Part shown: positions 23,160 to 59,339 of the stretch, piece after piece
Position numbering within the stretch: position 1 is the stretch's first letter
Layout: every line of letters starts with the position of its first letter
From: Thermococcus sp. 21S7
Lineage (GTDB): Archaea > Methanobacteriota_B > Thermococci > Thermococcales > Thermococcaceae
Direction of reading: 5' to 3'
Length of the DNA stretch: 64,000 bases
Assembly (NCBI RefSeq): GCF_012027615.1
Contig: NZ_SNUT01000001.1
Span: 186,001 to 250,000 of the forward strand
Notes under the pieces: model-generated
What the model saw: the letters and a program-made list of their open reading frames with translations, nothing else
Database searches by the model: none
Told to the model about the DNA's origin: nothing
Position numbers and translations under genes: made by a program

Positions 23160-23249
23160 TTTTCAGCCTTTTGAATATGCGGCCTTTTCTTGAAAATTTC
23201 TCGTGGAGGAAGGTTTATTCCGAAATCTGTTCGCCCAGCTGGACCAAAG

Positions 23250-23286
23250 GTTAGCAACATCTTTATAAACACCTTTGGTTGCAAAC
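23250..23286 (+). promoter_or_regulatory. nfn promoter with two GTTn3AAC (SurR-type) sites
   Basis: GTTAGCAAC (23250-23258) lies just upstream of TATA TTTATAAA (23262-23269), and GTTGCAAAC (23278-23286) just downstream. They are arms of a 13-bp inverted repeat (AAAGGTTAGCAAC versus GTTGCAAACCTTT, one mismatch). GTTn3AAC is the published SurR site of Pyrococcus, a redox-switch regulator of sulfur/hydrogen metabolism. Sites on both sides of TATA suggest repression; SurR control is inference. Confidence 0.6.
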
Positions 23287-23329
23287 CTTTAGATGTCCAA
23301 ATTTGACCACCTGCACGGAGGTGTTCATC

Positions 23330-25653
<2,324 letters not shown>

Positions 25654-59137: not shown

Positions 59138-59339
59138 GGCTTACACCTCCAGATGGTGGGTTTAAAAACCCTTTATAAATGAGGCGGATTGAGTTTTTAA
59201 AGGTTTAGGTCACAACGGCCAGGGGAGCGGAGGAAATGCACATAAATGTTCAGGCAGGGGTTAGAACTTTCTTAAGTGCCGGTAACTAAAAATCAAGAAG
59301 GCTTAAAAGGTGTTGGGCAGAGCTGGGGGTGGTGAGACC

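Follow-up and report, generated by a model that had tools for sequence, protein, structure and literature searches.

Conserved SurR sites on either side of the TATA box of the xfn (nfnII) operon in Thermococcus sp. 21S7 suggest repression in the absence of sulfur

Two exact GTTn3AAC motifs, GTTAGCAAC (23250-23258) and GTTGCAAAC (23278-23286), lie on either side of the TATA box TTTATAAA (23262-23269) in the promoter of the xfn/nfnII genes of Thermococcus sp. 21S7, as the initial annotation had correctly noted (all positions refer to the window, that is, the whole 64-kb stretch of DNA analyzed). The features of this locus are listed below.

23242..23258, minus strand: upstream SurR site GACCAAAGGTTAGCAAC with the core GTTAGCAAC at 23250-23258, identified from the sequence
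23262..23269, plus strand: TATA box TTTATAAA, identified from the sequence, with TTTATAA in 80 of 80 promoters
23278..23286, plus strand: downstream SurR site GTTGCAAAC, followed by CTTTAGAT, identified from the sequence
23290..23294, plus strand: probable transcription start region, placed by the TATA-to-start distance reported for T. kodakarensis (PMC4247193)
23317..23323, plus strand: ribosome binding site GGAGGTG, identified from the sequence, with the same or a very similar sequence at the equivalent position in the relatives compared
23330..24208, plus strand: xfn/nfnII small subunit, 292 aa, GTG start (PDB 5vj7_B, E 3.9e-156; 5jca_S, NfnI, 3.4e-66)
24205..25653, plus strand: xfn/nfnII large subunit (PDB 5vj7_A, E 3.2e-245; 5jca_L, 1.2e-222)

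The frame of the large subunit overlaps the end of the small-subunit gene (23330-24208 and 24205-25653), and this arrangement suggests that the two genes share one operon. Translation most likely starts at GTG 23330, with GGAGGTG at 23317-23323; many relatives have one additional residue after the start codon and are otherwise arranged in the same way. The TTG at 23279, which is the start given in the list of open reading frames, was rejected, given that the ribosome binding site belongs to GTG 23330 and that the relatives are arranged alike.

So which of the related enzymes does this operon encode? Both subunits are closer to the P. furiosus structure 5vj7, which we take to be P. furiosus Xfn, than to 5jca, which is NfnI according to the label of its PDB listing: the bit scores are 521.8 (5vj7_B) vs 226.6 (5jca_S) for the small subunit and 817.2 (5vj7) vs 742.7 (5jca) for the large one. 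NfnI is not the best match, as is most obvious from the E-values of the small subunit (3.4e-66 for 5jca_S vs 3.9e-156 for 5vj7_B). On these similarities, we take the operon to be Xfn/NfnII rather than NfnI, and NAD-linked electron bifurcation is therefore not secured. The two structures are named as the two from P. furiosus, 5JCA and 5VJ7, in one review (PMC6405883), and reviews describe NfnII as devoid of NAD+-dependent activity; its bifurcation is called unknown in that review (PMC6405883), and elsewhere bifurcation by NfnII is put forward as a proposal, the acceptor being undefined (PMC6085437). The former review places NfnII in all sequenced Thermococcales (PMC6405883). Contrary to this claim, G073 and G078, both single contigs and about 99% complete, seem to have no Xfn, their best E-values being no better than 6.9e-11 and 5.8e-48, respectively.

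The end of the upstream core is 3 nt away from TATA, and the complete upstream site, read on the minus strand, differs from the long motif GTTn3AACn5GTT by one mismatch (the outer AAC changed to GAC). The downstream site together with CTTTAGAT reads GTTn3AACn5GAT, which again differs from the long motif at one position (GAT instead of GTT). Judging from the promoter map of T. kodakarensis (PMC4247193), the BRE is probably located directly upstream of TATA and overlaps the upstream SurR site. In the same archaeon, the median distance from TATA to the start site is reported as 23 bp (PMC4247193); by analogy, transcription of xfn would start about 23 bp after TATA, at approximately 23290-23294, and the downstream site would sit between TATA and this point. 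The initial annotation described a 13-bp inverted repeat centered on TATA. The arms (23246-23258 and 23278-23290) pair at 12 of 13 positions; the midpoint of the repeat is 23268 and that of TATA is 23265.5. In our reading, this repeat is no separate element but consists of two SurR motifs that point outward. We do not favor a hairpin in the mRNA, given that both the upstream arm and TATA precede the likely start point.

Could such an arrangement have come about by chance? The window contains 25 GTTn3AAC sites (coding and intergenic together), that is, about one per 2.6 kb rather than the one per 4 kb assumed originally, compared to 12.1 (sd 3.3, largest 19) expected from 100 dinucleotide shuffles of the window. 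When 25 sites are placed at random, at least one pair 9-40 bp apart is found somewhere in the window with P = 0.26, so the assertion that spacing within 40 bp is unlikely by chance does not follow from the spacing alone. The explanation of the pair as a coincidence between copies of a frequent 6-base motif is compatible with this value and also with the background rate at which exact sites 19 nt apart occur elsewhere in the family: irrespective of TTTATAA, there are 43 such places in 42 of the 94 family genomes, and the 9 that are elsewhere compare with 21 in the reversed control (one strand counted). Outside the xfn promoter, the spacing of the pair is not enriched. What speaks for non-randomness is the single occurrence of the pair in the genome along with the constant distance of both positions from TATA across 80 orthologous promoters. 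In the 2.37-Mb genome, exact sites separated by 19 nt were found as a pair only at this place (reversed pattern, 0), and the exact pair with TTTATAA occurs in 34 of the 94 family genomes, once in each and always at the xfn promoter (reversed control, 0). Of the 80 orthologues, which amount to about 27 effective sequences, 73 have sites within one mismatch at both offsets. We consider the probability of a chance pair to be negligible; weak as the argument from spacing is, the question of chance is settled by this conservation. A second place in G001 (G001:C11:84965-85001) has two exact GTTn3AAC sites 19 nt apart, without TTTATAA between them.

The comparison underlying these statements covered 94 family genomes in which relatives of the first gene were sought, with some match in 93. 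The 80 promoters that were counted belong to orthologues of at least 64% identity (30 loci from the first search and 50 more) and were aligned on TTTATAA, which is present in each of them. Left out were G003, G036, G045, G063, G064, G073, G078, G082, G083, G085, G088 and G091, whose best E-values are too weak for an orthologue of at least 64% identity and 10 of which are under 90% complete. Also outside the counts are G055, in which each site has one mismatch (judged by eye), G052, with only a partial gene, and a separate contig scan in which 3 of the 80 loci listed exceed 50% identity (L031-L033).

In these promoters, a GTTn3AAC starting at -12 from the first base of TTTATAA is found within one mismatch in 80/80 and is exact in 43/80, and one starting at +16 is found within one mismatch in 73/80 and is exact in 60/80; both are exact in 34/80, and the downstream site has two or more mismatches in 7/80. 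Thus, conservation of the sites upstream of orthologous genes, which had been suggested as a check, is borne out, and loss of the motif in close relatives, the observation named as contradicting the proposal, was not found among the 80 orthologous promoters. The upstream long form AACn5GTTn3AAC is exact in 41/80, with an outer triplet AAC in 74, CAC in 5 and GAC in a single promoter, that of the Thermococcus sp. 21S7 window; the downstream long form is exact in 0/80 and has one mismatch in 41/80. In genus g3, the upstream core is GTTn3AAT in 9/9 promoters and the downstream site is exact in 3/9. Shuffling of the flanks yielded means of 0.44 (at -12) and 0.45 (at +16) sites among the 80 promoters, with the largest values of 4 and 3, and a mean of 0.001 for both sites within one mismatch; these are mononucleotide shuffles with TATA held fixed that do not model relatedness, and the effective number of sequences after down-weighting at 80% identity, 26.9, is to be read alongside them.

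A different question is how much of this constraint is due to SurR. The weighted information content is 1.47 bits for the upstream and 1.25 bits for the downstream motif bases, compared to 1.45 for TATA, 0.29 and 0.44 bits for the upstream and downstream flanks, respectively, and 0.39 for the n3 of the downstream site. Bases outside the motif are conserved as well, namely, those of the upstream site's spacers, which average 0.85 bits, and those that separate TATA from the downstream site, which average 0.80. Because of this conservation and the location of the upstream AAC at the expected position of the BRE, a part of the constraint may pertain to the core promoter rather than to SurR. Taken further, this argument would turn the motif into elements of the core promoter (BRE, TATA, initiator), or into the site of another regulator, so that the match to SurR would be incidental. 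Compatible with this interpretation are positions that are conserved outside the motif, at -7 (1.63 bits) and at 8-10 (0.97-1.98 bits) relative to TATA, as well as the fact that the TATA box itself, TTTATAAAC, is one mismatch away from GTTn3AAC, such that, with one mismatch allowed, offset 0 (40/80) also scores, along with -1 (16) and 39 (10). However, the GTT (-12) and the outer AAC (-20) both precede the BRE, with 1.0-2.2 bits per base; among the 11 TTTATAA of the window (both strands), this one alone has both sites within one mismatch; and exact sites in the 80 promoters are confined to four offsets, -12 (43), +16 (60), -26 (21) and -57 (1), those at -26 continuing the long motif upstream. 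We regard an incidental match to SurR as extremely unlikely. At position 59172 of the window, another TTTATAAA is accompanied by a one-mismatch GTTn3AAC starting at -12, without a downstream site within one mismatch.

The interpretation of the motifs as SurR sites is complemented by the presence of the regulator. The genome encodes a SurR orthologue (L171:2301-3023, 240 aa) in which the CxxC is CTEC and which matches the PF0095 structure 2qlz with an E-value of 3.5e-91; P. furiosus PF0095 is named SurR in the literature (PMC6981617). The gene adjoins, in divergent orientation, pdo (TIGR02187 over the cut-off), and a long SurR motif, placed by its coordinates, lies between the two. Genome-wide, GTTn3AACn5GTT has 38 matches (strands summed) vs 7 for the reversed pattern. 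Two exact GTTn3AAC sites in the xfn promoter, their conserved position in orthologous promoters, and a SurR with a CxxC in the same genome are features of the SurR regulon, some members of which also have the long form. This agrees with the P. furiosus SurR regulon (Lipscomb 2009, 2017; Yang 2010, as cited), in which the motif is GTTn3AAC or GTTn3AACn5GTT, SurR has a CxxC, and binding is reported to be abolished by sulfur; the motif type and the CxxC are the same here. Reduced SurR is described as binding DNA, and oxidation of the CxxC by sulfur as abolishing the binding (PMC8595942 among the sources). Taken together, the conserved sites, the SurR gene in the same genome and the published statements on orthologues make SurR control of xfn well supported. 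The proposal that electron bifurcation is under the sulfur switch is thus supported with regard to the switch; with regard to bifurcation, the identity of the operon as Xfn/NfnII does not secure it.

The connection between SurR and nfn, however, is not new: the literature already has the motifs as well as negative control of Nfn by SurR, Nfn being counted among the genes regulated in this manner (PMC8595942). For T. piezophilus Nfn II/Xfn, the same type of operon, Table 2 of that paper gives two short GTTn3AAC sites, at distances of 44 and 72 nt to the start codon (PMC8595942). In Thermococcus sp. 21S7, the corresponding distances are 23330-23286 = 44 and 23330-23258 = 72, counted from the last base of the site to the first base of the start codon; the counting in T. 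piezophilus may differ, but the difference of 28 is equal either way. Those data, as far as the table goes, pertain to another species and consist of positions only, without TATA or mutational analysis. In some promoters, repression is described as requiring an upstream site together with a downstream one, a finding credited to work on T. kodakarensis. In that archaeon, Hidese et al. reportedly found in 2017 one SurR site on each side of TATA, both needed to repress FNOR1. FNOR1, for which the same sulfur response is reported, may be the orthologue of the present operon. We have to conclude that the site pair is correct and already explained, SurR control of xfn/nfnII having been described in relatives. 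The present case is one more species supporting the sulfur switch SurR as governing which ferredoxin-NADP oxidoreductase is made; with the regulation itself established, the comparison of 80 promoters adds a sharp geometric rule, with sites at -12 and +16 from TATA.

The hypothesis that appears to accommodate these facts, and that we consider very probable, is that the xfn (nfnII) promoter is repressed by SurR through both sites when sulfur is absent and is released by the redox switch. The sites, their geometry in relatives, the SurR gene with its CxxC and the identity of the operon are observed; DNA binding, the redox switch and the direction of regulation would carry over from the papers on orthologues, and it is from these that we infer SurR occupancy and repression in Thermococcus sp. 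21S7. Without elemental sulfur, reduced SurR would occupy both sites, one of them overlapping the BRE upstream of TATA and the other between TATA and the start point, and TBP/TFB and RNA polymerase would thereby be unable to assemble or start. Sulfur would oxidize the CxxC pair, SurR would leave the DNA, and Xfn would then be made, linking ferredoxin and NADP(H) for sulfur-dependent growth. Repression is the likely mode because of the positions of the sites and because orthologues or likely counterparts rise with sulfur: FNOR1 of T. kodakarensis is reported to be more abundant with sulfur, SuDH II of T. onnurineus, likened to PF1910-1911, to be detected only with sulfur, and nfnII of P. furiosus to rise with sulfur (PMC6405883).

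Might SurR activate xfn instead? Sites downstream of TATA or overlapping BRE/TATA are said to repress and those upstream of TATA to activate, so the upstream site could help to recruit TBP/TFB while the downstream site merely tunes expression; moreover, FNOR2 of T. kodakarensis is reported to be activated by SurR bound in its promoter, and the direction of regulation is therefore not readable from the sites alone. Nevertheless, the upstream core ends only 3 nt before TATA, and it is a site overlapping BRE/TATA that is reported to repress mbs; furthermore, the orthologues are reported to rise with sulfur, that is, when SurR lets go. In addition, the geometry is different in the paralogue of 37% identity, where the long motif, judged by eye in 25 promoters, lies farther upstream of TATA than in xfn, an arrangement that would fit the reported activation of FNOR2, should this paralogue be its counterpart. 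We regard activation of xfn by SurR as very unlikely and retain repression as the preferred reading.

A more tentative suggestion concerns the fixed spacing, 28 bp start to start with the long motifs pointing outward around TATA. It might reflect a specific assembly of two SurR dimers that forms a clamp on both sides of TATA, an idea that we consider possible but rather doubtful; with the same reservation, such a clamp might have been kept family-wide despite the decay of single bases, in distinction to the wider upstream spacing in the paralogous nfn promoter.

The paralogous promoters that were read, among those listed, number 25 for the group of 37% identity and 19 for the group of 45% identity. 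Among the former 25, there are 8 (L167, L168, L169, L208, L211, L212, L222 and L223) whose TATA box is itself an exact SurR site (GTTATAAAC), and in 7 of these 8, a further exact GTTn3AAC follows 5 nt later, so that TATA is inside a long SurR motif. The genome that carries this xfn operon also has a paralogous nfn promoter (L161, G000:C1:348734-349284); its downstream site has one mismatch, and its long motif, GTTCTCAACCTTTGGTT, is exact and more distant from TATA on the upstream side.
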